DNA of 64,000 bases from Streptomyces sp. NBC_01237 (GTDB taxonomy: Bacteria; Actinomycetota; Actinomycetes; Streptomycetales; Streptomycetaceae): positions 6,758,001 through 6,822,000 of the forward strand of contig NZ_CP108508.1 of assembly GCF_035917275.1 (NCBI RefSeq), written 5' to 3'. This document shows, in pieces, positions 6,784 to 49,455 of the stretch (its first letter is position 1; the number at the start of each line of letters is the position of its first letter). Under the pieces are notes generated by a model, which saw nothing but the letters and a program-made list of their open reading frames with translations, made no database searches and was not told the origin of the DNA. A program made the position numbers and the translations under genes.

Positions 6784-6788
6784 CGCCT

Positions 6789-6810
6789 CGCGGCCCGGAG
6801 CGGGCCCGCG
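6789..6810. terminator. Stem-loop between convergent genes
   Basis: CGCGGCCCG, loop GAG, then CGGGCCCGCG: a GC-rich hairpin with a one-base bulge and no T-tract, lying between the convergent membrane protein and SDR genes. It probably terminates both. Confidence 0.55.
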
Positions 6811-6815
6811 GTGTC

Positions 6816-7808: not shown

Positions 7809-7880
7809 TCTTCATTGACTTGTGGAATGTCGACTGCTATAAGGCGCTACCCTCGGTGGCGCGGGCCCGGCGTGGTGCGC

Positions 7881-7910
7881 TTGACACTGAAATCGAACAT
7901 CCATTCTCAT
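7881..7910 (+). promoter_or_regulatory. recA promoter with LexA (SOS) box
   Basis: A TTGACA -35 element at 7881-7886 is followed, about 18 bases on, by a weak -10 (TCTCAT, 7905-7910). The 12-mer GAACATCCATTC at 7895-7906 sits in the spacer and overlaps the -10. It matches the Gram-positive/actinobacterial box GAAC-N4-GTTC with one change in the second half-site. LexA bound here would block RNA polymerase. Confidence 0.7.
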
Positions 7911-8046
7911 GGGATTCCGGCCGGGTTTTCCCGGGCCCGACCGTGGAGTTGTCCACAGGCCGGGAGGACGTCGAGGCCCATTGTCAGTGGCAGGGGTTAG
8001 CGTCTTTGACGTGAAGCGATCGACTCAAGCAAATCGGGTGGAACCC

Positions 8047-9177: not shown

Positions 9178-9180
9178 ACC

Positions 9181-9924: not shown

Positions 9925-10048
9925 ACCGGGCGGTGGTCCGTCCACGGGGGCGGGGAGGGGCACGGTCAGGACGGGGTGGGGCAGGGCTTTCGGGGCGGGG
10001 GAGGGGGCTCCGGCGGCCGGGGGACCGCTTCGTGGGTGGCGGGGCGGA

Positions 10049-10771
10049 TCAGTGCCCGGCGGACGATGCCCGGCGGATGGTGGCGTCGATCAGGGCAAGG
10101 GCATCGGTGGCGGTGCGGCCGGGGTGCCGGTTCCAGGGGCCGATCAGGCCTGGCCAGCCCTGGGAGCGGAGCTCGGTGATCAGCCAGGCCCCGGCCCGGT
10201 TCACGGTGCCGAGGGATCCGTAACCGAGCCGGTGCGCGGTGAGCAGGGCGCCACAGATGCAGCGGGCGCCACGGGCGTTGCGCAGCCGGTACGGGGTGTT
10301 CTGCCAGCCCCACTCGGTCAGGACCTGCCGTGCGTAGCCGAGCTGGGTGGAGGGGCGAAGGTCCGGCTGCCCGACGCGCCGCCAGGCATGGACGCGGTCG
10401 GGCAGGGCCGCACCCAGCCGTCCGGGGAGCGGGCGTTCGTACGGCGGGGCGGCGGGCAGCGTCCGCATCGCGTCGTCGATGAGCTGACCGACGGGTACGG
10501 ACAGCAGGCTTCGCCAGTCGGCCGAGCCCTGCGCCGTGCTCCGGGGCGGGTTCCCCGCCACCACCGGATCCTCTGCCGGTTTCTCCGCTGGTTCCACGGC
10601 CGGTTGTGCCGACGGGGTCGACGCCGGGGGGAACGCGGGCGCCGGGGCGGTGTACTCCCAGCCGGTGACGATCTGCTGCCATGCCTCCGTCTCATGAAGG
10701 CGGGCCGCCTGGAGGTCGAGCTGATCAGGGGTGAGGGCAGGGGCTTCCATCAGTGCGACATCTCCGTACAT
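10049..10771 (-). CDS. Hypothetical protein, DUF6197-like
   Basis: Protein of 240 residues. The C-terminal half, from EWGWQNTPYRLRNARGARC through CGALLTAHRLG to PWNRHPGRTATDALALIDAT, has the pattern I associate with DUF6197 proteins of Streptomyces (a GW start, RCICGAL, then W-N-x-GRTATDA). The N-terminal part is Ala/Pro/Glu-rich linker. The start at 10771 is chosen because AGAGGA precedes that ATG by 5 bases; a longer frame to 10951 exists. It diverges from the ArsR-like gene. Function unknown. Confidence 0.6.
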   Translation of the reverse strand: MYGDVALMEAPALTPDQLDLQAARLHETEAWQQIVTGWEYTAPAPAFPPASTPSAQPAVEPAEKPAEDPVVAGNPPRSTAQGSADWRSLLSVPVGQLIDDAMRTLPAAPPYERPLPGRLGAALPDRVHAWRRVGQPDLRPSTQLGYARQVLTEWGWQNTPYRLRNARGARCICGALLTAHRLGYGSLGTVNRAGAWLITELRSQGWPGLIGPWNRHPGRTATDALALIDATIRRASSAGH

Positions 10772-10931
10772 TTCGGTCCTCTGTATGAGGCGAATGTCGG
10801 TCGCGCACGGCGATTGCTCCACCGGAGTGTGGCGTTCGGGTGTGGTGAAGGGCGGAGGGGGACCGGAAAGTGGGTGAGAAGTGCGTCGAACGGGGGGGCT
10901 AACCCCCGTATCAAGACGCAGGCATGCTCCA

Positions 10932-10951
10932 GTGCACAGATATCTGTGCAC
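10932..10951. promoter_or_regulatory. Perfect 20-bp palindrome, probable operator
   Basis: GTGCACAGATATCTGTGCAC is a perfect inverted repeat ending 17 bases before the start of the ArsR-like gene. Position and symmetry suggest the binding site of that homodimeric winged-helix regulator, giving autoregulation and perhaps control of the divergent gene. Confidence 0.65.
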
Positions 10952-10968
10952 AGAGCAGTGTGTACGTC

Positions 10969-11817
10969 ATGGCAGAGAAGCCCGGCGGTACCGAGATCAC
11001 CGAACTGGCGGCGCTCAAGGCGCTCACCCAGCCGCGACGCCAGCGGATCTTTCAGCACCTCACCCTGCACGGCCCTGCGACGTCCGCGAGCCTGGCCCGT
11101 GCCCTCGGTCTGAACACCGGGGCCACCAGCTATCACCTGCGTGAACTGGCCCGGTACGGGTTCGTCGAGGAGACCGCCCCCGAGGACACCCGGCACGAGG
11201 AGACCGACACCGAGGGCGCCGAACCTGAAGACACCGGGCCCGAGGGCGCCGAACCCGGGGACACTCGGCACGAGGGAACCGACCCTGAGGGCGCCGAACC
11301 TGAAGACACCGAACCCGAAGACACCGGGACCCGAGACGCGGGAGCGTCCGGTTCCGGGGCGGAAGTCCCCGGGGCCCACCGCCGCAGATGGTGGCGTGCG
11401 ATTCCGGGCGACCGGCGCTTCCCGCCCAGGTCCCGCCAGAACCCCGAGACGCGGCTCGTCATGGACGAGCTCAATCACCACGCGTACGCCGAGGACCTCG
11501 CCCTCTTCGAACGGCTCCAGCGCGACGCCCCGCTGCCCGCCCCGGAAAGCGGTCGGCCGAGCGGCCCGGGGCAGGCGGAGGAGGCGGGAGAGCCGGACGA
11601 GGGCGAGTGGGCCGATGCCTTCGCGTACTCGCGCGGTTCCCTGCGGCTGACTCTCCCCGAACTCCGCGAGTTCTTCGAGGAGTACATCGCCCTGATGAAC
11701 CGCTACAAGCGGCCCGAGGGCGATGTCCCTCCCGCGTCCCGCACGGTCCACACCCGCCTGCTCGCCTTCCCGGCCCCCGACTCCACGATCGACCGCACAG
11801 AGACGGACGCACGATGA
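10969..11817 (+). CDS. ArsR-like winged-helix regulator with acidic repeat insert
   Basis: Regulator of 282 residues. The N-terminal winged helix (ALKALTQPRRQRIFQHL, then LGLNTGATSYHLRELARYG) is of the ArsR/HTH_20 type. Residues about 70-125 are an acidic Pro/Glu/Asp/Thr linker built from two 25-residue repeats. The C-terminal helical region (NPETRLVMDELNHHAYAEDL, then LTLPELREFFEEYIALMNRY) resembles the dimer/effector part of Streptomyces permease-linked ArsR proteins. Its stop overlaps the FtsX-type permease start (ATGA at 11814-11817), so the two are coupled. A perfect palindrome lies just upstream. Ligand unknown. Confidence 0.8.
   Translation: MAEKPGGTEITELAALKALTQPRRQRIFQHLTLHGPATSASLARALGLNTGATSYHLRELARYGFVEETAPEDTRHEETDTEGAEPEDTGPEGAEPGDTRHEGTDPEGAEPEDTEPEDTGTRDAGASGSGAEVPGAHRRRWWRAIPGDRRFPPRSRQNPETRLVMDELNHHAYAEDLALFERLQRDAPLPAPESGRPSGPGQAEEAGEPDEGEWADAFAYSRGSLRLTLPELREFFEEYIALMNRYKRPEGDVPPASRTVHTRLLAFPAPDSTIDRTETDAR
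11185..11334 (+). repeat. Two 75-bp in-frame tandem repeats in the ArsR-like gene
   Basis: The segments at 11185-11259 and 11260-11334 encode related DTRHE-E/G-TD...EGAEPEDT units, each also containing shorter PEGAEP and EPEDT sub-repeats. The reading frame is kept, so copy-number change would alter only linker length. Confidence 0.7.
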
Positions 11818-14489
11818 TGCTGCGCTACGCACTCCAGACGATCCGGGACCGGAAAGGCGGGTTCCTCGGTGCCCTGCTGGCCCTGATGTGCGCCGCCGCG
11901 CTCATCACCGCCTGCGGCACTCTTCTGGAGACCGGTCTTCGCGGAAGGATCACCACCGAGCGGTACGCGGCCACCCCGCTGATCGTCTCGGCCGACCAGA
12001 ACGTCCACCGGACCACGGTCAAGCACAAGGGCAACGGGAAGACGAAGACCAAGCACAAGGCGAAGCCCGTCGCCGAGCGCGCGTGGCTGCCCGCCGCCAC
12101 CGCCGACCGGGTACGTGCCCTCGACGGTGTCCACGCGGTGGTCCCCGAACTCACCTTCCTCGCCCAGCCTTTGTCCGACGGCCGGAAGCACATGTCCGCC
12201 GACCGGCCGTCGTACGGCCACTCCTGGGCCTCCGCACCGCTCACGCCGTTCGCGATCATCGCGGGCAGGGCCCCGTCCTCGGCCGACGACGTGGTGATCG
12301 ACCGCGGGCTCGCCGAGCGGGCCGGACTTCAGCCCGGGGACCGGCTCACCGTGCAGTCCACCGGCGTTCCGCGGCCGTACCGCGTGAGCGGAATCGCCGC
12401 TCCCACATCGGCCGATGCCTCCCTGCGCCCCGGTGCCTCCCGCGCCTCCGCTGTCTCCCCCACCTCAAAGACCTCCACCGGCTCCGGTGTCCCCGCAGGC
12501 GTCGCGGACCGTGCCGACGACGCACATCGCGCCGATCTCAGGCAGCAGACCTCACTCTTCTTCGCCCCCGCGGAGGCCGAGCGGCTCGCCGCCCGCCCCG
12601 GCCGGATATCCGCCCTCGGTGTGATCCCAGAGCCCGGCACGGACCCCGGCCGGCTGGAACAGCGGGTCGAGCAGGCGCTGAAGGGCACGACGGCGCAGGT
12701 CGCCGCGGGGGACGAACGGGGGCCGGTCGAGTTCCTGGACGCCGCGGGCGCCCGTATCAAACTCATCTCCATGGGAGGCGCGATGGGCGGTACCGCGCTC
12801 CTCGTCGCCGTCCTGGTCGTCGTCGGCACATTCGCGCTCTCCATCCAGCAGCGCCACCGCGAATTGGCCCTGCTGCGCGCCATCGCCGCCACTCCTCGCC
12901 AGGTCCGCCGGCTGCTCGGCCGTGAAGCGCTGCTGGTGGGAGCCGTGGCCGGGGTGCTGGGATCATGCGCCGGGCTGCCGCTCGCGGGCTGGCTGCACAG
13001 TCGATTCATCGACATGGGTGCCGTACCCGCCTCCTTGGAACGCACCACGGGCATCTTCCCGCTGTTCGCCGCGGTCGCCATCACTCTCGTCGGAGCCTGG
13101 GCGGCCGCGCGGATCTCCGGCCGCCGGATCTCCCGTATCCGACCCGCCGAGGCCATGGCCGAGTCCGCGGTCGAGGGGGACCGTCCGGCGTGGGGCCGGA
13201 TCGTCGCGGGGCTGGTGCTGCTGGCGGGCGGTCTGGTCCTCGTCGCCGTACTGGGAATCCTGCGTACCGAGGCCGCGTCGACCCCGGTCACCTTCCTCGC
13301 GGTGGTCGTGCTGGCCACCTCCGTCTCCCTGCTGGGGCCGCTCCTGGTCAGGGCGACGGCCGCGCTGCTCGCCGGACCGTTGCGGCAGGCGGGTCCGGGC
13401 GGCCGCCTCGCCACCGCCAACCTGCGTGGCCACGCCGCCCGGATGGCCGCTGTCGTCACCCCCCTCACCCTGCTCATCGGGATGACCTGCACCGTTCTCT
13501 TCGTCCAGCCCACGCTCGGTGACGCCGCCCGTACACAGGCCCGCGAAGGCACCCGCGCCACCGCGGTCCTGGTGGGTCAGGGCCCCGGAGTCCCGTCCGC
13601 CGTCGCCCGGAAGATCCGGGCGACGCCCGGGGTCTCGGCCGCCACCGAAGTCGTACGCACCACCGTGCGGGTGGGCCTGGACAAGTACACGGCCCAGGGC
13701 GTCACCCCCGCCGGTCTCAGCCGCACCTGGGACCCGGATGTCACCAGTGGTTCGCTCAACGGTTTCACCACGACCGCTCGTCCAGCCGCGATCAGTGAAC
13801 TCGCGGCCGACCGGCTGGGTCTCGGTCCCGGCGACGGGCTGGCACTGCACCTGGGCGACGGGACCCCGGCGACCTTCACCGTCGTCGCCGTGTACGCCCG
13901 TGGACTGGGCTTCGGCGATCTGACCCTGCCGCACGACCAGGTCGCCCGCCACATGGACAACCCGCTGGCCGCCACGGTCCTGGTGGCCTCGGAGCTGGGA
14001 CGCGACGAACTCGCCACCGGGATCGCGGAGTTTCCCGGGATCGCCGTTCTCGAACCGGCCGCGGTCGACCGGCTCCAGGCCGACCGCACTCAGGCGAACG
14101 CCGAGGTCAACTATCTGGCCATGGGGCTTGTGCTGGCCTTCACCGCCATCGCCGTCGTGAACACCCTCGCCATGTCTGTCTCCGAACGGATCAGGGAGTT
14201 CGCGATGCTCCGGCTGGCCGGGGCGACCCGCCGACAGGTCCTGCGGATGCTCCGGATCGAAGCGCTGGCGGTGCTGCTCCTGGCCACCGTCCTCGGCACC
14301 GGTATCGCGCTGGCGGTACTGACCGCGTTCAGCGTCGGCATGACCGGCAGCGCGGCACCCGGTGTGCTGCCCCTGGTGTACGCGGAAGTGGTGGGTGCGG
14401 CCGCCCTGTTGACCTTGGTCGCCACCGCTCTTCCCGGTCGGCTGGCGCTGAGGACCCGACCGGTGGAGGTGGCCACATCCAGGCAGTAG
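11814..14489 (+). CDS. FtsX-type ABC transporter permease
   Basis: Membrane protein of 891 residues with the FtsX/MacB permease architecture. A first helix near residues 15-35 is followed by a large extracytoplasmic domain (about 40-310) with a Lys-rich insert near 75-85, then three helices at about 320-440 (QQRHRELALLRAIAATPRQVRRLLGRE is the FtsX signature). A second unit has helices near 460-520, an extracytoplasmic domain and a final helix set with SERIREFAMLRLAGATRRQVLRMLR. It starts at the ATG overlapping the regulator stop. No ABC ATPase gene is adjacent, although this family needs one. Confidence 0.9.
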   Translation: MMLRYALQTIRDRKGGFLGALLALMCAAALITACGTLLETGLRGRITTERYAATPLIVSADQNVHRTTVKHKGNGKTKTKHKAKPVAERAWLPAATADRVRALDGVHAVVPELTFLAQPLSDGRKHMSADRPSYGHSWASAPLTPFAIIAGRAPSSADDVVIDRGLAERAGLQPGDRLTVQSTGVPRPYRVSGIAAPTSADASLRPGASRASAVSPTSKTSTGSGVPAGVADRADDAHRADLRQQTSLFFAPAEAERLAARPGRISALGVIPEPGTDPGRLEQRVEQALKGTTAQVAAGDERGPVEFLDAAGARIKLISMGGAMGGTALLVAVLVVVGTFALSIQQRHRELALLRAIAATPRQVRRLLGREALLVGAVAGVLGSCAGLPLAGWLHSRFIDMGAVPASLERTTGIFPLFAAVAITLVGAWAAARISGRRISRIRPAEAMAESAVEGDRPAWGRIVAGLVLLAGGLVLVAVLGILRTEAASTPVTFLAVVVLATSVSLLGPLLVRATAALLAGPLRQAGPGGRLATANLRGHAARMAAVVTPLTLLIGMTCTVLFVQPTLGDAARTQAREGTRATAVLVGQGPGVPSAVARKIRATPGVSAATEVVRTTVRVGLDKYTAQGVTPAGLSRTWDPDVTSGSLNGFTTTARPAAISELAADRLGLGPGDGLALHLGDGTPATFTVVAVYARGLGFGDLTLPHDQVARHMDNPLAATVLVASELGRDELATGIAEFPGIAVLEPAAVDRLQADRTQANAEVNYLAMGLVLAFTAIAVVNTLAMSVSERIREFAMLRLAGATRRQVLRMLRIEALAVLLLATVLGTGIALAVLTAFSVGMTGSAAPGVLPLVYAEVVGAAALLTLVATALPGRLALRTRPVEVATSRQ

Positions 14490-36266: not shown

Positions 36267-37439
36267 CTACCGACCGGCGAACTTGTCGCTCATCATCGTG
36301 AAGATGCCCTTCGCGCCCTCACCGAGCCGGGGACCGGCCAGCCAGCCCGAAGTGACCGGTCCGATGGATGTGTTGGACACCAGCGTCGACTTGCCGTCGG
36401 GCCCCTCGATGAACCAGCCGCCGCCGGAGGAGCCGCCGGTCATCGTGCAGCCGATGCGGTACATCGTCGGAGTCCCGGGGCTGATGGAGAGCCGGCCCGG
36501 ACGGTCGACGCACTGGTGCATGAGCAGACCGTTGTAGGGCGGCCCCGCGGGGTAGCCCCAGGCGCCCATGCCGCTGATCTGCTGGATCCCAGGAGCGTCG
36601 AAGGTGACCGGGAGGGCATTGCCCACGGTCTCCTCCAGCGACTTCGTACCGTTCTGCGGCTTCACATGCAGCACGGCGTAGTCGTACGGAGCGCCCTCGC
36701 CGCCCGTCGGACCGCCGTCGGCGATCCATTCGCCGGAGGACGCGGCCCAGTCCGCCCAGTACGTGCCGTAGGGGGCGACCTCCTGAGGCTGGGCGTTCCG
36801 CAGTGCTGCCGCCGATTTGCCCTGGTCGTTGTACGAGGGCACAAAGACGATGTTGCGGTACCAGCCGCCGTTCGCACCGGCGTGAACACAGTGTCCGGCC
36901 GTCCAGACGAGGTTGGACCTGCCGGGATTCCTCGGGTCCTTGACGACGGTGCCCGAGCAGACCATGGAGCCTTCGGGCGAGTCGAAGAAGACCTTGCCGA
37001 CCGGGGCCGCGTACTGGTGGTAGGGCAGCTTCTCCGGCTCGGCCCGGACCGGTGCCGGTTCCGGATCGCTGACGCCCTGGTCGCCGGTCAGGTCACCGGC
37101 CGCCATCGTCTTGGCCGGTTCCTCGGCCGACGTCATCCGTTCGGGCTTCCACAGTCCGTCGATGACCGGATTGACGAAGTCCTTGGCCTCGCGCAGCCAT
37201 GTGTCCTTGTTCCAGTTCCTCCACTCGCCGTTCTTCCACTTCTCCGGGTCGACACCGTGCTTCTTGAGTGTGTCGCCGAGACCGTCGGGAAGGCCGCCGT
37301 CGGAGCCCTTCTCGCCGGCCGAACCGGCTGTGGCCGAACTGCCTGCCGCGCCGTCCTCGTCGGGGCCGCAGGCCGTGGCCGTCAGCGCGAGTGCCGCGAC
37401 GAGGCCGGTCGCGGCCAGCAGCGGACGTATCGATCGCAT
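36267..37439 (-). CDS. Trypsin-like serine protease lipoprotein (paralogue 1)
   Basis: Exported protein of 390 residues. The signal peptide ends in lipobox LTATAC, with the lipidated Cys near residue 24. A Gly/Ser-rich linker leads to a Trp/Lys-rich module (KKHGVDPEKWKNGEWRNW...) at about 60-105. The S1-like protease domain has the catalytic His in WTAGHC, Asp in YDYAVLHV and Ser in TGGSSGGGW. ATG 37439 chosen because the signal peptide starts there. A close paralogue lies directly upstream at 37743-38966. Substrate unknown. Confidence 0.85.
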   Translation of the reverse strand: MRSIRPLLAATGLVAALALTATACGPDEDGAAGSSATAGSAGEKGSDGGLPDGLGDTLKKHGVDPEKWKNGEWRNWNKDTWLREAKDFVNPVIDGLWKPERMTSAEEPAKTMAAGDLTGDQGVSDPEPAPVRAEPEKLPYHQYAAPVGKVFFDSPEGSMVCSGTVVKDPRNPGRSNLVWTAGHCVHAGANGGWYRNIVFVPSYNDQGKSAAALRNAQPQEVAPYGTYWADWAASSGEWIADGGPTGGEGAPYDYAVLHVKPQNGTKSLEETVGNALPVTFDAPGIQQISGMGAWGYPAGPPYNGLLMHQCVDRPGRLSISPGTPTMYRIGCTMTGGSSGGGWFIEGPDGKSTLVSNTSIGPVTSGWLAGPRLGEGAKGIFTMMSDKFAGR

Positions 37440-37588
37440 GGAAAGGAATCCCCCTGAGTACATTACAAATTGCCATGGACGCGTCACATGGAAGGAATGG
37501 TCCACCCGCTGACCACCCATGGTGTGCGCCCACCCTATGGTGTCCCGCCCCGGTCCGGGCCACGGGGACAGAGCTCCACCGCGTACGG

Positions 37589-37742: not shown

Positions 37743-38966
37743 CTACTGCCCGGCGTACTTCTTGCTGACGGCCTCGTAGACGCCCTTGGCCTCCTTGCCG
37801 AGGCGCGGGCCTGCCAGCCAGCCCGCGGTGACCGGGCCGATCGACGTGTTGGAGACCAGGGCGGGCTTGCCGTCCCGGCCCGCCGCGACCCAGCCACCGC
37901 CGGAGGAGCCGCCGGTCATCGTGCAGCCGATACGGTGCATCGTCGGTTCGTCCTTGACGACCGAGAGGCGGCCCGGCCTGTCCTTGCACTGGAGCAGCTT
38001 CTGACCGTCGAACGGCGGCGCGGCCGGGTATCCGGTCGCCGTCATGTCCGCGATCTCCGCCACCGCCGGGGCGTTGAACTCCACCGGAAGCGCCGAACCG
38101 ACCGTCTCCTCAAGAGACTTGCCCGTCGCGCCCTTCTCCGGCGTCACATGCAGCACCGCGAAGTCGTACGGAGCGCCCTGTCCGCCGACCGACGCGCCCT
38201 CGGCGATCCACTGCTCGGACGTCTGGGCCCACTGGCCCCACCACACGCCGTACGGTGCGATCTTCTCCTTGGGTGCGTTCTGCAGCTCCTCCAGCGACAG
38301 GCCGCTGTTGTTGTACGCCGGGACGAAGGCGATGTTGCGGTACCAGCCGCCCTTCTTGCCCGCGTGGACGCAGTGCCCCGCGGTCCACACCATGTTGGAC
38401 TTGCCGGGGTTCGCGGGATCCTTCACCACGGTCGCCGAGCAGACCATCGAGCCCTCGGGCCCGTCGAAGAGGAGCTTCCCGGATTCCGGGGCGTTGTCGT
38501 GGTAGGGCGTCGATACGGCCGCGGCCTCGACCGGGGAGGGCGTCGGGTCCGTCACGCCCTCGTCGCCGGAGATGTCGTTGTCGACCGGCTTCTCCGGGGA
38601 CTTGTCGGCATCCCGCATCCGGTCCGGGTCCCAGAGGCCCTCGATGATCGGGTTGACGAAGTCCTTGGCCTCACGCAGCCACTTCTCCTTGTTCCAGTTC
38701 TTCCACTCGCCGTCCTTCCACTTCTCCGGGTCGATGCCGTGCTCCTTGAGCCGGTTCTTGAGGTCGTCCGGAATCGTGACCTTGCCGTCGGACGACTGAC
38801 CGGCCGAGCTGCTCGGCGTGACGCCCGCGTTGTCCTCCTCCGGCCCGCAGGCGGTGGCGGTGAGCGCGAGGACGGCGGCGACGGCCGCTGCGGCGAGCAC
38901 GGGGGAGGGCGTGCGGAGTCGGCGCCTCCCGGGGTGTGCGGCATCGGTCGGGCGAATGGGTCGCAT
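37743..38966 (-). CDS. Trypsin-like serine protease lipoprotein (paralogue 2)
   Basis: Protein of 407 residues with the same layout as the neighbour: signal peptide with lipobox LTATAC near residue 40, Ser/Gly linker, Trp/Lys-rich module (KEHGIDPEKWKDGEWKNW...), then protease domain with WTAGHC, YDFAVLHV and TGGSSGGGW. Its N-terminus is longer and Arg-rich (RRRLRTPS before the hydrophobic core). ATG 38966 chosen; in-frame codons upstream belong to the intergenic region. The pair clearly arose by tandem duplication and has separate terminators. Confidence 0.85.
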   Translation of the reverse strand: MRPIRPTDAAHPGRRRLRTPSPVLAAAAVAAVLALTATACGPEEDNAGVTPSSSAGQSSDGKVTIPDDLKNRLKEHGIDPEKWKDGEWKNWNKEKWLREAKDFVNPIIEGLWDPDRMRDADKSPEKPVDNDISGDEGVTDPTPSPVEAAAVSTPYHDNAPESGKLLFDGPEGSMVCSATVVKDPANPGKSNMVWTAGHCVHAGKKGGWYRNIAFVPAYNNSGLSLEELQNAPKEKIAPYGVWWGQWAQTSEQWIAEGASVGGQGAPYDFAVLHVTPEKGATGKSLEETVGSALPVEFNAPAVAEIADMTATGYPAAPPFDGQKLLQCKDRPGRLSVVKDEPTMHRIGCTMTGGSSGGGWVAAGRDGKPALVSNTSIGPVTAGWLAGPRLGKEAKGVYEAVSKKYAGQ

Positions 38967-39267
38967 CTGGTGATCCCCCTGGGACTTCGACACTCGTGAC
39001 TCAGTACTGCACTTCGGGCATGTGGGGCGTCGGGACACTCCCTCCCACCCCGAGTGCGGCCCCCACTATGCCGGTGCCGATGGGGACGGTGCGCGGCAGG
39101 GCCGTGGTTCCGCGTCCGCAAGGATCTTCCGATTTACCCGTGATCCCCGGCGATCGGCGTCGTTGGTACGTACGGGGGAGACGGGGACAGCGTTCATCCG
39201 CGTAGTTCGCCCGTGGGGCGACGTACTGACGTGCAAGGCAACCGTTATCGCAGGAGGACCTACAGCC
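38967..39267. promoter_or_regulatory. Divergent region before the siderophore operon
   Basis: About 300 bases with no gene. It should hold promoters for protease paralogue 2 and the siderophore operon. I looked for the actinobacterial iron-regulator box (TTAGGTTAGGCTAACCTAA-like) and saw none. AGGAGG at 39252-39257 is the ribosome site of the aminotransferase. Confidence 0.5.
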
Positions 39268-40662
39268 GTGGCCGTGACCGAACCAGCTCCGGTGGCACCG
39301 CCCTCCGCGCACGAGGGCATTCTCCGACGTCAGTCGCTGCGTGAATCGGCTGCCCGCACCTATGCGCGCTCGCTGCCGATCGTGCCGGTGAGGGCGCGCG
39401 GGCTGACCATCGAGGGGGCGGACGGACGGCGCTATCTCGACTGTCTCTCCGGGGCGGGCACGCTGGCACTCGGACACAACCACCCGGTGGTGCTGGAGGC
39501 GATCAGGAAGGTCATCGACTCCGGAGCCCCCCTCCATGTGCTCGACCTCGCCACCCCGGTCAAGGACGCCTTCACGACCGAGCTGTTCGCCACCCTGCCG
39601 CGGCAGTTCGCCGACAACGCGCGCATCCAGTTCTGTGGCCCCGCGGGCACGGACGCCGTGGAGGCGGCCTTCAAACTGGTCCGCGCCGCGTCCGGACGCA
39701 CCGGACTGCTGGCCTTCACGGGCGCCTATCACGGTATGACGGCCGGGGCGCTCGCCGCCTCGGGCGGTGCCCCGGACACCAGTGTGACGCGGCTGCCGTT
39801 CCCCCAGGACTACCGCTGCCCCTTCGGGATCGGCGGCGAGCGGGGGGCCGACATCGCCGCGCACTGGACCGAGCACCTCCTGGACGACCAGAAGGGCGGC
39901 GTCCCCGCCCCCGCCGGGATGATCCTGGAACCGGTCCAGGGCGAAGGCGGGGTGAACCCCGCCCCCGACGGCTGGCTGCGCCGGATGCGGGAGATCACCG
40001 CGGCCCGCTCCATCGCGCTGATCGCCGACGAGGTGCAGACCGGCGTCGGCAGGACCGGCGCCTTCTGGGCGGTCGAACACAGCGGCATCGTGCCCGACGT
40101 GATGGTGCTCTCCAAGGCGATCGGCGGCTCCCTCCCGCTCGCCGTGATCGTCTACCGGTCCGAACTGGACGTGTGGCAGCCAGGGGCCCACGCCGGTACG
40201 TTCCGCGGCAACCAACTCGCCATGGCGGCGGGGGCGGCCACCCTCGCGTACGTACGGAGCAACGGGCTCGCGCAGCACGCCGCGACCCTGGGCGCCCGCA
40301 TGCTCGCCCGCCTCCGGGGGCTGAGCGCGGATCACCCGAGCATCGGCGACGTCCGGGGGCGCGGCCTGATGATCGGCATCGAACTCGTCGATCCCGAGGC
40401 CGCGCCGCTCCCCACCACGACCGGCGGCAGTTCCGCCCCGCCACCACCGGACCCCGTCCTCGCCCGCGCCGTCCAGCAGGAGTGCCTGCGCCGCGGTCTC
40501 ATCGTCGAACTCGGCGGACGACACGGCGCCGTGGTCCGCCTGCTTCCCCCCCTCACCCTCACCGACGAACAGGCGACGGCGGTCGTCGACCGCCTCGCCG
40601 ACGCACTGACCGCCGCCGAGCGCTCGCCGAACCGTCGGGCCGCTGCCGGGTCGAACCACTGA
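39268..40662 (+). CDS. Diaminobutyrate-type PLP aminotransferase of NIS siderophore operon
   Basis: Class III aminotransferase of 464 residues, RhbA/DABA:2-oxoglutarate transaminase-like. Motifs: YLDCLSGAGTLALGHNHP near 55, FCGPAGTDAVEAAFK, GAYHGMTAGALAASG, IADEVQTGVGRTGAFWAVEHSG and the PLP lysine in VLSKAIGGSLPLAV. It would make L-2,4-diaminobutyrate from aspartate semialdehyde. GTG 39268 lies 10 bases after AGGAGG; GTG 39274 is possible. First gene of a four-gene operon whose order matches rhbA-C-D-F. Confidence 0.85.
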   Translation: MAVTEPAPVAPPSAHEGILRRQSLRESAARTYARSLPIVPVRARGLTIEGADGRRYLDCLSGAGTLALGHNHPVVLEAIRKVIDSGAPLHVLDLATPVKDAFTTELFATLPRQFADNARIQFCGPAGTDAVEAAFKLVRAASGRTGLLAFTGAYHGMTAGALAASGGAPDTSVTRLPFPQDYRCPFGIGGERGADIAAHWTEHLLDDQKGGVPAPAGMILEPVQGEGGVNPAPDGWLRRMREITAARSIALIADEVQTGVGRTGAFWAVEHSGIVPDVMVLSKAIGGSLPLAVIVYRSELDVWQPGAHAGTFRGNQLAMAAGAATLAYVRSNGLAQHAATLGARMLARLRGLSADHPSIGDVRGRGLMIGIELVDPEAAPLPTTTGGSSAPPPPDPVLARAVQQECLRRGLIVELGGRHGAVVRLLPPLTLTDEQATAVVDRLADALTAAERSPNRRAAAGSNH

Positions 40663-40691
40663 CCCCGGACACCCCCACAAGGAAGACCGCC

Positions 40692-42581
40692 GTGAACCCC
40701 ACCCACGCATCCGAGGCCGACGGCCCTCTGTCCCACCCGCACCGGGGGCAGGACGGCCCGGCCTGCCCCGGCACGGTCGAGGCGGTGACGGTCCCCCGCC
40801 AGAAGGCCGCACCCCGCAGAGATCTCCGCACCCCCGCAGGCACTCCCGGCGGCTCCGCACCGGCGGATCTCCTGGACCACCCGGATCCGGTCCGGGCCGC
40901 GGACGCGGCGGGCACCGAGAACCTGCTGCGCTGCTGGATCCGGGAGAACGACCTGCCCCGCCCCGACCGCGACACCCTGCGCGTCCCCCTGCCCGCCACC
41001 GGCACCGCCCTGCTCGTTCCCGTCCTCTACTGGTCCGCCACCGGAGCACACCGCTTCGGGGCACCGGCCCTGGAGAGCGCACCCGAGCACGGCCCGGCCG
41101 TCGACGCCGTCACCGTCGCGGCACTCCTCGGCCGCGAGGCGGGCAGCCACGGGGGCGCCGACCTGGTGGCCAGGGTCGCCGACTCGGTACGCCACACCGC
41201 CGACTTCATCGCCCAGCGACGGCGTACCCCGGAAGCTCCCGCCGAGGCCGACCTGTTCCTCACGGCCGAACAGTCCCTCCTGCTGGGACACCCACTGCAC
41301 CCGACGCCCAAGAGCCGCGAAGGTCTCTCCGAGTCGGAGGCGCGCCTCTACTCACCGGAGCTGCACGGCTCGTTCCCGCTGCACTGGATCGCCGTGGACC
41401 GATCGGTGCTGGCCACCGAATCCTCCTGGACCGACAACGGCAGCCCGGTGTCCGCGGAGGCCCTCCTCGCCCCCCACACCGACGGGCTGCGCCTCCCCGG
41501 GAACACCGCGGCGCTCCCGCTGCACCCCTGGCAGGCCGCCGAACTGCACCGCCGGCCGGACGTGTCCGCGCTCCGGGACGCGGGGCTCCTCCACGACCTC
41601 GGCCGGCACGGTGAACGCTGGCACCCCACCTCCTCCATCCGCACCGTGCACCGGCCCGGCGCGAACCTGATGCTGAAGCTCTCCCTCGGCGTACGCATCA
41701 CCAACTCCCGTCGCGAGAACCTCCGCAAGGAACTGCACCGCGGCGCCGAGGTCCACCGCCTGCTCGGCACCGGGCTGGCCGCACAGTGGCAACAGGCCCA
41801 TCCCGGCTTCGACATCGTCCGCGACCCCGCCTGGCTCGCCGTCGACAGCATGGACGGCCTGCCCGTACCCGGCCTCGATGTCATGCTCCGCCACAACCCG
41901 TTCGGACCGGACGACGACGCCGTGTGCATCGCCGGACTCACCGCGCAGCGCCCCTGGCCGGGCCGCACCCAGGTGAGCTCCCGGCTCGCGGAGATCGTCT
42001 CCCGCCTCGCCACGCGCACCGGGCGGACGACCGGAGCCGTCAGCGCCGAGTGGTTCCTGCGCTACCTCGACCGTGTCGTACGCCCCGTGCTCTGGCTCGA
42101 CGCCACCGCCGGGGTGGCCCTGGAAGCCCACCAGCAGAACACGCTGGTTCTGCTCGATCCCGAAGGCTGGCCCATCGGAGGCCGCTACCGGGACAACCAG
42201 GGCTACTACTTCCGAGAATCCCACCGTGCCGCGCTGGAACAGCGGCTGCCCGGCATCGGCACCGTCAGCGACACCTTCGTCTCCGATCCGGTCACCGACG
42301 AGCGCTTCGCCTACTACCTCGGCATCAACAACGTGTTCGGACTCATCGGCTCCTTCGGAGCACAGCAACTCGCCGACGAGCAGCTCCTCCTCGCCGCCTT
42401 CCGCCGTTTCCTGGCCGGTGCCGCGGGGATGGGCTCGCCCCTGCCCGCGTACCTCCTTCACACGCGGCAACTGCGCTGCAAGGCGAACCTGCTGACCCGG
42501 ATGCACGGTCTCGACGAGTTGGTCGGACCCGTCGACACCCAGTCCGTCTATGTCTCCATCGCCAATCCTCTGACCACTTGA
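40692..42581 (+). CDS. IucA/IucC-family NIS siderophore synthetase (first)
   Basis: ATP-dependent synthetase of 629 residues that joins a carboxylate such as citrate to an amine. Motifs: GHPLHPTPKSREG near 208, LPLHPWQAAEL near 277, SSIRTVHRPGANLMLKLSLGVRITNSRR near 315-340, EAHQQNTLVLLD and GGRYRDNQGYYF near 480-500. The first 70 residues are a variable Pro/Ala-rich extension. GTG at 40692, 29 bases after the aminotransferase. By position and motifs it resembles RhbC/IucA, the first-condensation type. Confidence 0.88.
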   Translation: MNPTHASEADGPLSHPHRGQDGPACPGTVEAVTVPRQKAAPRRDLRTPAGTPGGSAPADLLDHPDPVRAADAAGTENLLRCWIRENDLPRPDRDTLRVPLPATGTALLVPVLYWSATGAHRFGAPALESAPEHGPAVDAVTVAALLGREAGSHGGADLVARVADSVRHTADFIAQRRRTPEAPAEADLFLTAEQSLLLGHPLHPTPKSREGLSESEARLYSPELHGSFPLHWIAVDRSVLATESSWTDNGSPVSAEALLAPHTDGLRLPGNTAALPLHPWQAAELHRRPDVSALRDAGLLHDLGRHGERWHPTSSIRTVHRPGANLMLKLSLGVRITNSRRENLRKELHRGAEVHRLLGTGLAAQWQQAHPGFDIVRDPAWLAVDSMDGLPVPGLDVMLRHNPFGPDDDAVCIAGLTAQRPWPGRTQVSSRLAEIVSRLATRTGRTTGAVSAEWFLRYLDRVVRPVLWLDATAGVALEAHQQNTLVLLDPEGWPIGGRYRDNQGYYFRESHRAALEQRLPGIGTVSDTFVSDPVTDERFAYYLGINNVFGLIGSFGAQQLADEQLLLAAFRRFLAGAAGMGSPLPAYLLHTRQLRCKANLLTRMHGLDELVGPVDTQSVYVSIANPLTT

Positions 42582-42660
42582 GCCATCACGTCCCCGAGCC
42601 GTCGCGCCCCTGTGCCACGGGGAAAGCCGACTGACCGACCCAGGAGAGGAGAGCATCACC

Positions 42661-43380
42661 GTGCCTCCCGCCGATGCGCACCCGGAGCCCGGCCCCACCG
42701 CGGCGCCCGCCACCAGCGCCGAGGACACCCTCGACCTGAGGCTCTCCGAAGAACTCCTGGCTCTGTCGGGCGACGACGTGAGAGCGGCCGACGCACGGCC
42801 GGCCGCCTCCGATCTGCTCGGGGATCCCGCCACCTGGCGCCCCGTCACCACAGCCAGGGGCGTGTTCCAGCTGGTCCCGGTACGACTGGAGCGCGACCTC
42901 GCCGTGCTCAGCCGCTGGATGAACGACCCGGCGGTCGCCGCGTTCTGGGAACTCGCCGGACCCGACGCCGTCACCGCCGAACATCTCGGACCACAGCTCG
43001 AAGGCGACGGACGCAGCATCCCCTGTCTGGGCGTGCTCGGCGGCATGCCCATGAGCTACTGGGAGATCTACCGGGCGGACCTGGACCCGCTGGCGCGCCA
43101 CTATCCGGCCCGGCCTCATGACACCGGCATCCACCTCCTCATCGGAGGCGTGAACAACCGGGGCAGGGGCATCGGCGCCACCCTGCTCCGCACCGTCGCC
43201 GACCTCGTACTCGATCACCTTCCCCTGTGCGGACGCGTCGTGGCGGAGCCGGACCTCCGCAATACGCCGTCCGTAGCCGCATTCCTCAGCGCCGGCTTCC
43301 GCTTCTCCGCCGAGGTGGAACTCCCCGCCAAGCGCGCCGCCCTGATGATCCGTGACCGAACGCACCGTGCCCAGCTGTGA
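42661..43380 (+). CDS. GNAT acyltransferase of siderophore operon (RhbD/IucB-like)
   Basis: Protein of 239 residues. The N-terminal 60 residues are a flexible region, followed by a GNAT fold of the IucB/MbtK/RhbD group: LVPVRLERDLAVLSRWMNDPAVAAFWEL, PMSYWEIYRADLDPLARHY, GIHLLIGGVNNRGRGIGATLL and VAEPDLRNTPSVAAFLSAGF. Family members acylate a hydroxylamine or amine of the siderophore building block. GTG at 42661 with AGGAGAGGAG upstream. Sits between the two synthetases. Confidence 0.85.
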   Translation: MPPADAHPEPGPTAAPATSAEDTLDLRLSEELLALSGDDVRAADARPAASDLLGDPATWRPVTTARGVFQLVPVRLERDLAVLSRWMNDPAVAAFWELAGPDAVTAEHLGPQLEGDGRSIPCLGVLGGMPMSYWEIYRADLDPLARHYPARPHDTGIHLLIGGVNNRGRGIGATLLRTVADLVLDHLPLCGRVVAEPDLRNTPSVAAFLSAGFRFSAEVELPAKRAALMIRDRTHRAQL

Positions 43381-43440
43381 ACAACTCGCCGTATTGCCCA
43401 GACCGCTCGAACCCCATCGGTTCCACCCGGAGGAGTCCCT

Positions 43441-45333
43441 GTGCCGAAATACCCTGCGAGCCATGAATCAGCCGAATCCCACGGCCTGCTCAGGACCCCG
43501 GAGCTGAACCGGACGGTCTGGGAGCGGGCGGCAGCCCGGCTGCTCGCCAAGATGCTCGGCGAATTCGCCTACGAAGAGATCATCGAGCCAGTGCAACGGC
43601 CCGGGGAGAGTGACACCTACGCGATCCGGCTCGACGACGGCGCAATTCTGAGTTTCCGGGCGGGCCGCGGTGTCTACGGCAGCTGGCGCGTCGTCCCGGA
43701 TTCGATCCATGTGTGCGAAGGGCCGTCCAGGACCGGGCCTTCCGGCATGCCCCGAGGGCAATCGGCGGGCCGTTCCGGCGAACCACAAGCCCGGACGCGG
43801 CCGTTCCGGGATCCGCTCCGGTTCCTCACCCGTGCCCGCGGTCTCCTCGGACTCGACGGTGCCACGCTCGGCCATCTCATCCGTGAGGTCACCACCACGC
43901 TGGCGGCCGACTCCCGTCTCGATCACACCGCTCTCACCGCCGACCGCCTGGCCGAGCTCGACTACGCCGAGCTCGAAGGGCACCAGACCGGTCACCCGTG
44001 GCTCGTCGCCAACAAAGGGCGCCTCGGTTTCTCCGCGGAGGACACCGCCCGGTTCACCCCGGAGACACGCAGAGCGGTACGTCTGCCCTGGATCGCCGTC
44101 AGCACCCGCATCGCGGGATACCGGGGGGTGACGAGACTGGCCACTCCCGAGCGCCTCTACGCCCAGGAACTCGACGCCCCCGTCCGCGCGTCCTTCGTCG
44201 CCGAACTCAGCTCGCGCGGCCTCGACCCGGAGGACTATCTGTACCTCCCGGTACACCCTTGGCAGTGGAACGAATGGATCGTTCCGCTCTTCGCCCCGGC
44301 CATCGCGGACGGGGACATCGTCGCGCTGCACGCCGACGACGACGCCCGGCTGCCGCAGCAGTCCATCCGTACGTTCTCCAATGTGGGGCGACCCGACCGG
44401 CACACGGTCAAACTGCCGCTGTCGATCCTCAACACGCTCGTATGGCGCGGTCTTCCCACGGAGCGCACGCTCGCCGCGCCGGCCGTCACCGCCTGGGTGC
44501 AGGGACTGTGCGACGCCGATCCGTTCCTGCGTGACACCTGTCGCATCATTCTTCTCGGCGAGGTCGCTTCCGTGGCCGTCGAGCACCCGCTGTACGACCA
44601 TCTTCCCGAGGCGCCGTACCAGTTCAAGGAGATCCTCGGCGCGATCTGGCGAGAGCCCCTGCCTCCTCGGCTGGCACCGGGCGAACGCGCCCGCACCCTG
44701 GCCTCACTGCTGCACACGGACCCCGACGGCCGCGCGTTCACGGCCGAGCTGGTCGACCGGTCCGGACTGACGCCGACCGTGTGGCTCACCCGGCTGTTCG
44801 CCGCTCTGGTGCCGCCTCTGCTGCATTTCCTCTACCGCTACGGAACGGTGTTCTCCCCGCACGGCGAGAACACCATCGTCGTCTTCGACGAACAGGACGT
44901 CCCCGTACGACTCGCGATCAAGGACTTCGTCGACGACGTCAATGTCAGTGCCCTGCCGTTGCCGGAGCACGATTCGATGCCCGAGGACGTACGGCGCGTC
45001 CTGCTGACCGAGGAACCCTCCTTCCTCACCCAGTTCATCCACTCCGGTCTCTTCATCGGGGTCTTCCGCTATCTGTCCCCCCTGTGCGAGGAACAGCTGG
45101 GTGTGCCGGAGAGTGAATTCTGGTCACTTGTCCGGGCGGAGATTCTTCGTCATCACGCCCGGTTTCCCGAGCTCAAGGAACGGTTCGAGACGTTCGACAT
45201 GCTCACTCCGGAGATCGAGCGCCTCTGTCTCAACCGTAACCGTCTGCATGTGGACGGTTACCGCGACCGGCCTCAGCGTCCGCACGCCGCCATCCACGGC
45301 ACCGTGCCCAATCCGCTCCACCCCGCCGTGTGA
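43441..45333 (+). CDS. IucA/IucC-family NIS siderophore synthetase (second)
   Basis: Synthetase of 630 residues. Motifs: GHQTGHPWLVANKGRLGFS near 178-196, LPVHPWQWNEW near 275, QQSIRTFSNVGRPDRHTVKLPLSILNTLVWRGLP near 303-340, FSPHGENTIVVFD near 477 and KDFVDDVN. These resemble RhbF/DesD/AlcC enzymes acting on an already substituted carboxylate. GTG 43441 with GGAGG upstream, 60 bases after the acyltransferase. Last gene of the operon; no exporter, reductase or binding protein accompanies it. Confidence 0.88.
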   Translation: MPKYPASHESAESHGLLRTPELNRTVWERAAARLLAKMLGEFAYEEIIEPVQRPGESDTYAIRLDDGAILSFRAGRGVYGSWRVVPDSIHVCEGPSRTGPSGMPRGQSAGRSGEPQARTRPFRDPLRFLTRARGLLGLDGATLGHLIREVTTTLAADSRLDHTALTADRLAELDYAELEGHQTGHPWLVANKGRLGFSAEDTARFTPETRRAVRLPWIAVSTRIAGYRGVTRLATPERLYAQELDAPVRASFVAELSSRGLDPEDYLYLPVHPWQWNEWIVPLFAPAIADGDIVALHADDDARLPQQSIRTFSNVGRPDRHTVKLPLSILNTLVWRGLPTERTLAAPAVTAWVQGLCDADPFLRDTCRIILLGEVASVAVEHPLYDHLPEAPYQFKEILGAIWREPLPPRLAPGERARTLASLLHTDPDGRAFTAELVDRSGLTPTVWLTRLFAALVPPLLHFLYRYGTVFSPHGENTIVVFDEQDVPVRLAIKDFVDDVNVSALPLPEHDSMPEDVRRVLLTEEPSFLTQFIHSGLFIGVFRYLSPLCEEQLGVPESEFWSLVRAEILRHHARFPELKERFETFDMLTPEIERLCLNRNRLHVDGYRDRPQRPHAAIHGTVPNPLHPAV

Positions 45334-45383: not shown

Positions 45384-47354
45384 ATGACGAAGCCATCTCT
45401 CCCCGAGCTCCTCCATGCCGCCGTCACCGCCGTCGGCGGTTCGGAAAGGCCCGGCCAGGCCGCCATGGCCGAGGCCGTTGCCGAGGCTGTGGACGACCAA
45501 TCCCATCTCCTCGTCCAGGCCGGTACCGGCACGGGCAAGTCCCTCGGCTATCTGGTGCCCGCGCTGGCGCACGGGGAGCGCGTCGTGGTGGCCACGGCGA
45601 CTCTCGCGCTCCAACGGCAGCTCGTGGAACGAGACCTTCCGCGTACGGTCGACGCGCTGCATCCGCTGCTGCGCCGCCGTCCCCAGTTCGCGATGCTCAA
45701 GGGGCGCTCGAACTACCTCTGTCTGCACCGGCTCCACGAAGGGGTCCCGCAGGACGAGGAGGAGGGGCTCTTCGACCAGTTCGAGGCGGCGGCACCGTCG
45801 AGCAAACTGGGACAGGACCTGCTGCGGATGCGGGACTGGTCCGACGAGACGGAGACCGGGGACCGGGACGACCTCACTCCCGGTGTCTCGGACCGGGCCT
45901 GGGCGCAGATCTCCGTCTCCTCGCGTGAGTGTCTGGGCGCGACCAAGTGCGCGTACGGCGCGGAGTGCTTCGCGGAGATGGCCCGGGAGCGCGCCAAACT
46001 CGCCGACGTGGTCGTCACCAACCACGCGTTGCTGGCGATCGATGCCATCGAGGGTGCTCCCGTGCTCCCGCAGCACGAGGTGCTGATCGTCGACGAGGCC
46101 CACGAGCTGGTCTCCCGGGTCACCGGCGTCGCCACCGGTGAGCTCACTCCGGGGCAGGTGAACCGCGCGGTCCGCCGCGCGGCGAAGCTGGTCAACGAGA
46201 AGGCCGCCGATGCCCTGCAGACCGCGTCGGAGGGGTTCGAGCGGGTCATGGAGCTGGCGCTTCCCGGCCGCCTGGAGGAGGTGCCCGAGGATCTGGGGTA
46301 CGCCCTGATGGCGTTGCGCGACGCCGCGCGCACGGTGATCTCCGCTCTGGGCGCCACCCGGGACAAGTCGGTCCAGGACGAGGACGCGGTCCGTAAGCAG
46401 GCCATGGCCTCGGTCGAGTCGGTCCACAGTGTCGCCGAGCGGATCACACAGGGCTCGGAGTACGACGTCGTCTGGTACGAACGACACGACCGCTTCGGGG
46501 CCTCCGTGCGCGTCGCACCGCTCTCCGTCTCCGGCCTGCTGCGCGAGAAGCTGTTCGCCGAACGCTCCGTCGTCCTGACCTCCGCGACGCTGAAGCTGGG
46601 CGGGGACTTCAACGGGGTGGGGGCTTCGCTGGGGCTCGCCCCGGAAGGCACCGCGGGCGACAACGTCCCCCAGTGGAAGGGCCTGGACGTCGGGTCGCCG
46701 TTCGACTATCCGAAGCAGGGCATCCTCTACGTCGCCCGGCATCTGGCCACGCCAGGACGGGAGGGATCCCGTACGGACATGCTGGACGAGCTCGCCGAAC
46801 TGGTGGAGGCGGCAGGCGGCCGGACTCTGGGTCTGTTCTCCTCCATGCGAGCGGCTCAGGCGGCGGCCGAGGAACTGCGGGGCCGGCTGGACAAGCCGAT
46901 TCTGTTGCAGGGTGAGGAGACGCTCGGCGAGCTGATCAAGAACTTCGCCGCCGATCCGGAGACCTGTCTCTTCGGCACCCTGTCGCTGTGGCAGGGCGTC
47001 GATGTGCCCGGGGCGAGCTGCCAGCTCGTGATCATGGACAGGATTCCGTTCCCCCGGCCCGACGATCCGCTGATGAGCGCCCGCCAGAAGGCCGTCGAGG
47101 AGGCGGGCGGCAACGGGTTCATGGCGGTCGCGGCGACCCATGCCGCGCTGCTGATGGCCCAGGGTGCCGGTCGGCTCGTGCGGGCCACGGGCGACAAGGG
47201 AGTCGTCGCCGTGCTGGACCCCCGGCTGGCCAATGCTCGATACGGGAGCTATCTGCGCGCTTCACTGCCTGACTTCTGGTACACGACCGACCGTAACCAG
47301 GCCCGACGCTCACTGGCGTCCATCGACGCGGCGGCCAAGGCCGACGGGAAGTAG
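45384..47354 (+). CDS. DinG/XPD-like ATP-dependent DNA helicase
   Basis: Superfamily 2 helicase of 656 residues of the DinG/YoaA group. Walker A AGTGTGKS near 46-53, DEAH in VDEAHELVSRV, motif SATLKLGG, and VI in MAQGAGRLVRATGDKG. Four cysteines, NYLC plus ECLGATKCAYGAEC (near 180-195), are placed to hold the [4Fe-4S] cluster of these enzymes. Starts ATG 45384. It converges on lexA, fitting a DNA-repair role, but no LexA box is seen upstream. Confidence 0.88.
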   Translation: MTKPSLPELLHAAVTAVGGSERPGQAAMAEAVAEAVDDQSHLLVQAGTGTGKSLGYLVPALAHGERVVVATATLALQRQLVERDLPRTVDALHPLLRRRPQFAMLKGRSNYLCLHRLHEGVPQDEEEGLFDQFEAAAPSSKLGQDLLRMRDWSDETETGDRDDLTPGVSDRAWAQISVSSRECLGATKCAYGAECFAEMARERAKLADVVVTNHALLAIDAIEGAPVLPQHEVLIVDEAHELVSRVTGVATGELTPGQVNRAVRRAAKLVNEKAADALQTASEGFERVMELALPGRLEEVPEDLGYALMALRDAARTVISALGATRDKSVQDEDAVRKQAMASVESVHSVAERITQGSEYDVVWYERHDRFGASVRVAPLSVSGLLREKLFAERSVVLTSATLKLGGDFNGVGASLGLAPEGTAGDNVPQWKGLDVGSPFDYPKQGILYVARHLATPGREGSRTDMLDELAELVEAAGGRTLGLFSSMRAAQAAAEELRGRLDKPILLQGEETLGELIKNFAADPETCLFGTLSLWQGVDVPGASCQLVIMDRIPFPRPDDPLMSARQKAVEEAGGNGFMAVAATHAALLMAQGAGRLVRATGDKGVVAVLDPRLANARYGSYLRASLPDFWYTTDRNQARRSLASIDAAAKADGK

Positions 47355-49290: not shown

Positions 49291-49455
49291 GCGGTACCCG
49301 CTCGTCCCGTCCGGCAGTGGGCTGCCGGACGGCGACAGGGCAGTACAAGACCTGTTCGCGGATGCCGTACGCGGCGTCCGGAGCATCAGACACACACTGT
49401 GTCCCGGGAAGAACTGGGCACTTCAGGGCGTTTTTGCCCACATATGGGAGGCGGC

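Follow-up and report, generated by a model that had tools for sequence, protein, structure and literature searches.

A predicted schizokinen-type siderophore pathway split between two unlinked, conserved chromosomal sites in Streptomyces

A predicted siderophore operon and a distant gene pair

The DNA examined here is a window of 64,000 nucleotides from Streptomyces sp. NBC_01237 (RefSeq assembly GCF_035917275.1, contig NZ_CP108508.1, positions 6,758,001 to 6,822,000), and the element of interest within it is an operon of four genes related to those that build siderophores with nonribosomal peptide synthetase-independent siderophore (NIS) synthetases. In order, these genes are predicted to encode a diaminobutyrate (DABA) aminotransferase, a first synthetase of the IucA type, a GNAT N-acyltransferase, and a second synthetase of the IucC type (Table 1). 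As argued below, the operon is probably one part of a schizokinen-type pathway whose remaining genes, an rhbB-rhbE pair, reside at a second, unlinked chromosomal site that is likewise conserved.

The aminotransferase matches the Pfam family Aminotran_3 (E 1.7e-87) and scores 482.6 bits with the NCBIfam model dat (diaminobutyrate--2-oxoglutarate transaminase), for which the cut-off is 401.6. Both synthetases carry the IucA_IucC and FhuF domains (E 1e-62 and 1e-32 in the first, 2.9e-72 and 2.8e-41 in the second). The top PDB relative of the IucA-type protein is the aerobactin synthase IucA (5jm7, E 1.6e-52), and those of the IucC-type protein are DesD, an alcaligin protein, and IucC. The former also contains the motifs GHPLHPTPKSREG, PTSSIRT, and EAHQQN, and the acyltransferase matches Acetyltransf_8 (E 3.3e-45). 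Gaps of 29, 79, and 60 bases separate the genes, and 50 bases lead on to a dinG-type helicase gene. The site consists of hflX, two divergent secreted-protein genes, the operon, and the dinG-type gene. In the majority of the Streptomyces loci inspected, the operon genes recur in this arrangement at the corresponding position, which places the operon far beyond chance. The closest named record listed is Streptomyces sp. TSRI0281, whose IucA-type protein is 98% identical.

A first-pass annotation of this DNA had described four gene types in the order rhbA-rhbC-rhbD-rhbF, with neither rhbB nor rhbE among them and with no exporter or uptake gene alongside. The Pfam and NCBIfam matches and the gene order on pSymA of Sinorhizobium meliloti confirm the types and order, and within the hflX-to-dinG stretch, no decarboxylase, hydroxylase, exporter, or uptake gene was seen by gene listing or Pfam search. 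The same annotation had suggested that the missing steps might come from another locus, for example the desferrioxamine genes, or that the compound might be built directly on DABA.

The existence of another locus became apparent from a search of the whole window genome (10.19 Mb in 4 contigs). NIS synthetase domains (PF04183) are confined to the operon's own two synthetases. The hydroxylase and decarboxylase families yield several matches each, and in one place a hydroxylase match adjoins a decarboxylase match (C1:2137701-2139991; Lys_Orn_oxgnase and Pyridoxal_deC), 4.66 Mb from the operon. The decarboxylase gene comes first and overlaps the hydroxylase gene, on the same strand, by the 4 bases ATGA; a 5'-nucleotidase gene and pepN flank the two (locus L020). 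In 20 pair loci of other genomes, pepN adjoins the hydroxylase or the decarboxylase gene every time, and the nucleotidase gene is seen in 17. We found no publication in the open-licence literature that links this pepN-side pair with the operon.

Comparison with PDB entries favors RhbB- and RhbE-type assignments for the pair. The decarboxylase scores 264.6 bits with a DABA decarboxylase (2qma) and 214.1 with the desferrioxamine enzyme (5o5c), whereas the genome's own DesA, used as a control, shows the reverse (308 and 496 bits). For the hydroxylase, the ranking is 6xbb, entitled “Monooxigenase” (316.2 bits), the desferrioxamine hydroxylase 5o8p (303.4), and the putrescine N-hydroxylase 7us3 (289.6), while amino-acid hydroxylases reach at most 161 bits. 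The other two strong hydroxylase matches in the genome are only 28-30% identical to the pair enzyme. With the pair included, all six functions of a rhizobactin/schizokinen-type pathway are predicted to be present in the window genome, and the operon is not incomplete.

We propose that the operon aminotransferase would convert aspartate semialdehyde into DABA, which RhbB would decarboxylate to 1,3-diaminopropane and RhbE would hydroxylate to N-hydroxy-1,3-diaminopropane. The GNAT enzyme would then form an N-acyl hydroxamate, the IucA-type synthetase would attach this hydroxamate to citrate, and the IucC-type synthetase would carry out a second attachment to yield schizokinen or a close relative. 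We infer these substrates, the order of the steps, and the product from the sequences. If the proposal is correct, it provides the other half of an orphan locus that is common to most sampled Streptomyces, predicts a product, and names the second locus. Genome mining that treats each cluster separately would miss the connection between the two sites, and other orphan clusters in Streptomyces may likewise have hidden partners.

The desferrioxamine genes were considered as the donor of the missing steps and rejected. The des locus of the window genome (L021, G000:C1:3056000-3075000, at 7278-10820) is eroded: it keeps a siderophore-interacting protein gene, desA, and desC, with open desA and desC frames and a perfect iron box before desA. 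However, desB has no match there above chance, desD persists only as a short trace (E 2.8e-8), and none of the genome's three strong hydroxylase matches is more than 40% identical to DesB of genome G134. Because the DesD domain is absent outside the operon's synthetases and desB is gone, the des genes do not serve as donor. A desferrioxamine pathway requires both DesB and DesD, and neither was found in this genome; the window strain is a Streptomyces that has lost desferrioxamine, whereas DesD is kept in 117 of the 151 Streptomyces genomes that we sampled.

Table 1. Features of the operon site (window positions) and of the unlinked pair (contig C1 of the window genome)
Feature	Position	Strand	Remarks
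Divergent secreted-protein gene	37743..39038	-	Left-hand anchor of the site; paralogue of its trypsin-like neighbour
Conserved non-coding block CGTCGTTGGTACGTACGGGG	39158..39177	+	5' of the aminotransferase gene; not an iron box
Predicted DABA aminotransferase, RhbA-type	39268..40662	+	464 aa; GTG start; AGGAGG ribosome site; Aminotran_3
Predicted first NIS synthetase, RhbC/IucA-type	40692..42581	+	629 aa; IucA_IucC and FhuF
Predicted GNAT N-acyltransferase, RhbD/IucB-type	42661..43380	+	239 aa; Acetyltransf_8
Predicted second NIS synthetase, RhbF/IucC-type	43441..45333	+	630 aa; IucA_IucC and FhuF
dinG-type helicase gene	45384..47354	+	Right-hand anchor of the conserved site; context only, outside the pathway
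Predicted diamine N-hydroxylase gene, RhbE-type	C1:2137359-2138789	Same as decarboxylase gene	Placed from reading frames
Predicted DABA decarboxylase gene, RhbB-type	C1:2138786-2140207		Placed from reading frames

Several side observations concern these two regions. The tandem secreted-protein genes (36267-37520 and 37743-39038), which are divergent to the operon and accompany it in many loci, are weakly trypsin-like: the first matches Trypsin_2 below the cut-off, and the second matches no Pfam family at 0.001. The pair region displays a strong strand skew (L020, about 5000-14000), in which third codon positions are 87% C and 5% G in the decarboxylase gene, 78% C in pepN, and 60% G in the opposite-strand nucleotidase gene. 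Among five genomes compared, synonymous divergence is lower at the pair region than at the operon. Elsewhere in the window, positions 49350-49432 match the Rfam nrdJ RNA (75.7 bits).

Distribution and joint loss among Streptomyces genomes

The first-pass annotation had advised that rhbB and rhbE homologues be sought in other Streptomyces genomes, and in our survey sample both proved to be common. Pair-type RhbE is present in 139 of 151 genomes (G039 and G067 being scored on partial matches), and RhbB, at a threshold of E <= 1e-80, in 133, some one-locus copies included. Of the 12 genomes in which the pair hydroxylase was scored as absent, three (G041, G108, and G114) possess a one-locus cluster that includes an RhbB and an RhbE of its own. 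IucA gives a strong match in 142 genomes, a weak one in 2, and none in 7.

The IucC-type synthetase is more sporadic. An orthologue (at least 66% identity, some partial) was found in 81 genomes and is missing from 70, and 62 of the 142 genomes with IucA lack it. Most IucC-lacking genomes that were inspected keep IucA and the GNAT gene, and often the aminotransferase, at the same site. Among the named loci, of which the best 80 were considered, 58 have all four operon genes and 22 have fewer, 15 of the latter being cut by a contig end. The S. coelicolor locus, numbered SCO5799-5801 and thus of three genes, presumably represents the shorter, IucC-less form; published passages either describe it as a putative siderophore locus or name its genes and give no product, in keeping with the first-pass statement that none is assigned. 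Each of the 70 IucC-lacking genomes has 2 to 6 PF04183 matches, several of which, beyond DesD and IucA, are synthetases with no assigned role that may also stand in for IucC. DesD is missing more often where IucC is present (24 of 81 genomes) than where IucA occurs without IucC (8 of 62; p 0.025, ancestry ignored), a hint that the two synthetases replace each other.

Given how often IucC is missing and that single genomes have reduced operons, the operon could be regarded as a decaying relic that makes no product in the window strain. This is extremely unlikely, as all four frames are intact and free of internal stops, the operon is 95-98% identical in a sister genome, and its genes exhibit dN/dS values of about 0.10-0.27.

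The observation that most directly ties the two sites together is their joint loss. After inspection of the sites, 149 genomes were scorable: partial RhbB sequences lie at contig edges in the pepN loci of G092, G132, and G077, so that G092 and G077 were rescored as RhbB-present, and G132 and G026 were dropped as undetermined. All seven IucA-less genomes lack RhbB, compared with 7 of 142 that carry IucA (Fisher p 1.2e-8, ancestry ignored). Before this rescoring, RhbB was absent from 18 of 151 genomes, comprising 9 of 9 IucA-less and 9 of 142 IucA-bearing ones. An earlier score of the pair against IucC gave a Fisher p of 0.067, or 0.44 with four low-identity genomes counted as lacking, and was superseded by the IucA-based scoring.

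The seven IucA losses are in G012, G025, G030, G087, G123, G125, and G135. Inspection shows an empty or reduced operon site in all of these but G123, where the 1.5 kb before dinG holds no operon gene. At the other site, the nucleotidase gene adjoins pepN directly in G025, G125, and G087, nothing of the pair was seen within 1.5 kb of pepN in G135, and G012 has lost RhbB but keeps RhbE. For G030 and G123, as for the IucA-bearing G094, the absence of RhbB was scored by genome search alone. In a tree of dinG and pepN from 30 genomes, in which five of the seven losers could be placed, G087 groups with G126 and G025 with G125, and a single clade of losers is weakly rejected (approximately unbiased test, p 0.043).

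These losses bear on whether the operon could make a carboxylate or amide compound directly on DABA, without decarboxylation or hydroxylation, while the pair serves something else. Achromobactin-type chemistry, in which a carboxylate is built directly on DABA, provides a precedent; the operon has a DABA aminotransferase but no rhbB or rhbE beside it, and the pair persists in genomes with shorter operons. We nevertheless consider this alternative, which the first-pass annotation had offered, to be very unlikely, because the unlinked pair exists and RhbB is missing from every IucA-less genome. Moreover, homologues of the operon genes stand together with rhbB and rhbE in one-locus clusters, and some operons (L103, L112, L113, L117, L183, and L207) have no aminotransferase yet retain IucA and GNAT genes.

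Another possibility is that the pair supplies a different pathway, such as that for mixed desferrioxamines, and shares its absences with the operon by coincidence or common ancestry. Pair-type RhbE is indeed widespread, also where IucC is missing and DesD is present, and it outlives RhbB in G012, G042, and G145. However, it is also kept in 30 of 34 DesD-lacking genomes, the window genome among them, and in the two-gene tree, the joint losses are spread over several branches rather than confined to a single lineage. Such a separate role for the pair therefore appears unlikely.

Several observations weigh against the split pathway. Of the 70 genomes that lack IucC, 61 retain RhbE; the pair is thus not bound to the complete operon of four genes. 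Seven genomes (G007, G042, G048, G094, G114, G124, and G145) bear IucA but lack RhbB at the threshold used. Of these, G042 and G114, although still counted as RhbB-less, possess a one-locus cluster whose decarboxylase is more distant (45-46% identity), G145 has a TGA inside its IucA match, and G048 has a reduced operon, whereas no explanation was found for G124. A single clade is rejected weakly with dinG and pepN, and a tree of dinG by itself does not reject it (p 0.112). A sign test on the tree comprises 2 firm independent pairs, which both agree, and with this number it cannot reach 0.05. In addition, RhbB and RhbE show high dN/dS values (0.27-0.76), in a region of extreme third-position bias; in BLAST comparisons, the S. 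meliloti decarboxylase is better matched by DesA than by the split RhbB; and for relatives in which schizokinen has been reported, the authors' cluster assignments are based on genome mining and not on mutants, as far as the published passages show (PMC13136089, PMC11865988).

The first-pass annotation had held that its view would be undermined by a linked decarboxylase and hydroxylase that strictly co-occur with the operon. Co-occurrence was largely found, whereas linkage was not, and the association has the exceptions just listed.

Iron boxes, expression, and products of relatives

In our scan for iron boxes, a box with 0-4 mismatches was found in every control, comprising 2 of 2 des loci and 5 of 5 one-locus loci of the rhb type. 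(L046, L049, and L051 were left out of the controls, having been grouped after their boxes were seen.) From 127 operon loci, 3 duplicates and 14 with too little upstream sequence were removed, and none of the remaining 110 has an iron box within 5 mismatches; the best match has at least 6 mismatches in all 127. In the whole window, no box was found at up to 3 mismatches. Among 23 pair loci, 22 likewise have at least 6 mismatches, and the box of the exception sits before pepN, not at the pair. The non-coding block upstream of the aminotransferase gene (Table 1) hardly varies among 12 aligned close relatives, and by eye, no convincing motif common to the upstream regions of operon and pair was seen. 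These data suggest that expression of the operon is independent of a DmdR1-type iron box, but from the absence of a box at the operon, the absence of iron control does not follow.

In passages with expression data for S. coelicolor, SCO5799 and SCO5801 are up at 48 and 72 h (log2 1.3 and 1.8, and 1.8 and 1.3, respectively), while SCO2782 (desA), after rising at 24 h (1.1), falls (-3.7 and -3.2), as does a coelichelin gene (PMC3610822). Passages of a copper study report SCO5800 down while SCO2783 and SCO2785 are up (PMC6414726), and no SCO579x or SCO580x gene turned up when the main text of a paper from 2025 on the DmdR1 regulon was searched by term (PMC12161575).

Tentative evidence for the predicted product comes from relatives. 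Schizokinen was tentatively identified by liquid chromatography-mass spectrometry (LC-MS) in S. mutomycini SL02 and Streptomyces sp. SL03, according to passages of a 2026 report (PMC13136089), and was reported by LC-MS in S. anulatus RLA103 in passages of another (PMC11865988). S. mutomycini NRRL B-65393, another strain of the same species as SL02, has the full operon (L154).

The proposed pathway could be right and its product still be an ordinary low-iron siderophore, with iron control exerted by another regulator or through an extra rhbB-rhbE pair that has an iron box. We regard this as a realistic possibility, though not the favored one. In the passages of the 2026 report, siderophores appear in significant amounts solely in medium without added iron salts, the source of its schizokinen (PMC13136089). 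One relative does carry such an extra pair (L051, G004:C1:6383000-6402500, at 7875-10884), with an iron box just upstream, between metE-type and ETF genes and with no synthetase matched. However, no such pair was found in the window genome, as its other strong hydroxylases are too distant from RhbE, and the scarcity of iron boxes at both sites, set against the controls, and the opposite courses of SCO5799/SCO5801 and of desA and the coelichelin gene also speak against this explanation.

The absence of the second synthetase from 62 of the 142 IucA-keeping genomes leaves room for a shorter product, a borrowed synthetase, or another purpose. We speculate, and consider this extension of the split pathway somewhat doubtful, that a near-universal, iron-box-free, two-locus pathway in Streptomyces makes a citrate compound of N-acyl-N-hydroxydiaminopropane; that in IucC-less members, about two fifths of the genus, it either ends with a mono-citryl hydroxamate or makes use of DesD or a different synthetase; and that it has a developmental role or one other than iron acquisition. 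If true, this would account for SCO5799-5801 having no assigned siderophore in the published work that we found.

Comparison with known siderophore systems

Aerobactin is built from N6-hydroxylysine, and its pathway is not known to include a DABA aminotransferase or decarboxylase. It was rejected as a model for the present genes, which include predicted versions of both enzymes and whose hydroxylase scores 160.8 bits with the lysine hydroxylase MbtG. The features of a rhizobactin/schizokinen-type NIS pathway are, by sequence, found in the window genome: an aminotransferase, two NIS synthetases, and a GNAT enzyme from the operon, and a predicted decarboxylase and N-hydroxylase from the unlinked pair. 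What was not found is a single cluster, given the 4.66 Mb between operon and pair.

The rhizobactin 1021 genes rhbABCDEF are a close parallel. On S. meliloti pSymA, where the record is unannotated and the rhb names are applied here, the six homologues form one run in the order A-B-C-D-E-F, and the order A, C, D, F is kept in the window operon and B, E in the pair. Identities lie between 38 and 54%: aminotransferase 54%, IucA 39%, GNAT 38% (residues 77-230), hydroxylase 43%, IucC 40%, and decarboxylase 42.3% (residues 113-447). In contrast to rhizobactin 1021, the window genes are split over two unlinked chromosomal sites, with no iron box and no adjacent transport genes. Rhizobactin also carries an acyl-lipid tail. 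Schizokinen pathways are known from Bacillus and cyanobacteria, and they share with the present one the predicted building block, N-acyl-N-hydroxy-1,3-diaminopropane on citrate. They are known as single clusters, unlike the split pathway, which also has no iron box.

Other relatives are the one-locus rhb-type clusters of further Streptomyces and of Rhodococcus pyridinivorans pSID; their homologues of the split genes are mostly 41-60% identical, with the aminotransferase reaching 71%. In Streptomyces, the clusters L044, L045, L048, and L250-L252 match five of the six genes but no GNAT gene, and L047 and L054 match the GNAT gene but not the aminotransferase; clusters also occur in Rhodococcus (aminotransferase unmatched) and Halorussus. 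They differ from the split pathway in that the genes are linked and the five Streptomyces clusters scanned have an iron box in the stretch, that of L044 (4 mismatches) lying about 1.5 kb before the first gene. In L045, rhbB and the IucA-type gene are separated by an additional decarboxylase gene, which belongs to the ornithine/DAP family (5651-6997). A further iron-boxed locus, L046 (G142:C1:3025000-3044500, at 8008-12513), combines a FhuF-like gene, an RhbE-like hydroxylase gene, and a single NIS synthetase with about 38% identity to the window IucC.

The desferrioxamine genes desABCD encode the same enzyme classes as the split pathway but occupy distinct branches of the gene trees. In quick trees of RhbB, RhbE, IucA, and IucC, in which long branches were flagged, the split copies group with actinobacterial one-locus rhb-type copies, apart from DesA, DesB, and DesD. 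The desG/desH genes of S. coelicolor resemble the pair in that they, too, complete the siderophore pathway of a Streptomyces from an additional, unlinked locus, although those loci are reported to be tied together by iron boxes, unlike the operon and pair (PMC12161575). The proposed split pathway is a known type of pathway in a new, two-locus arrangement.

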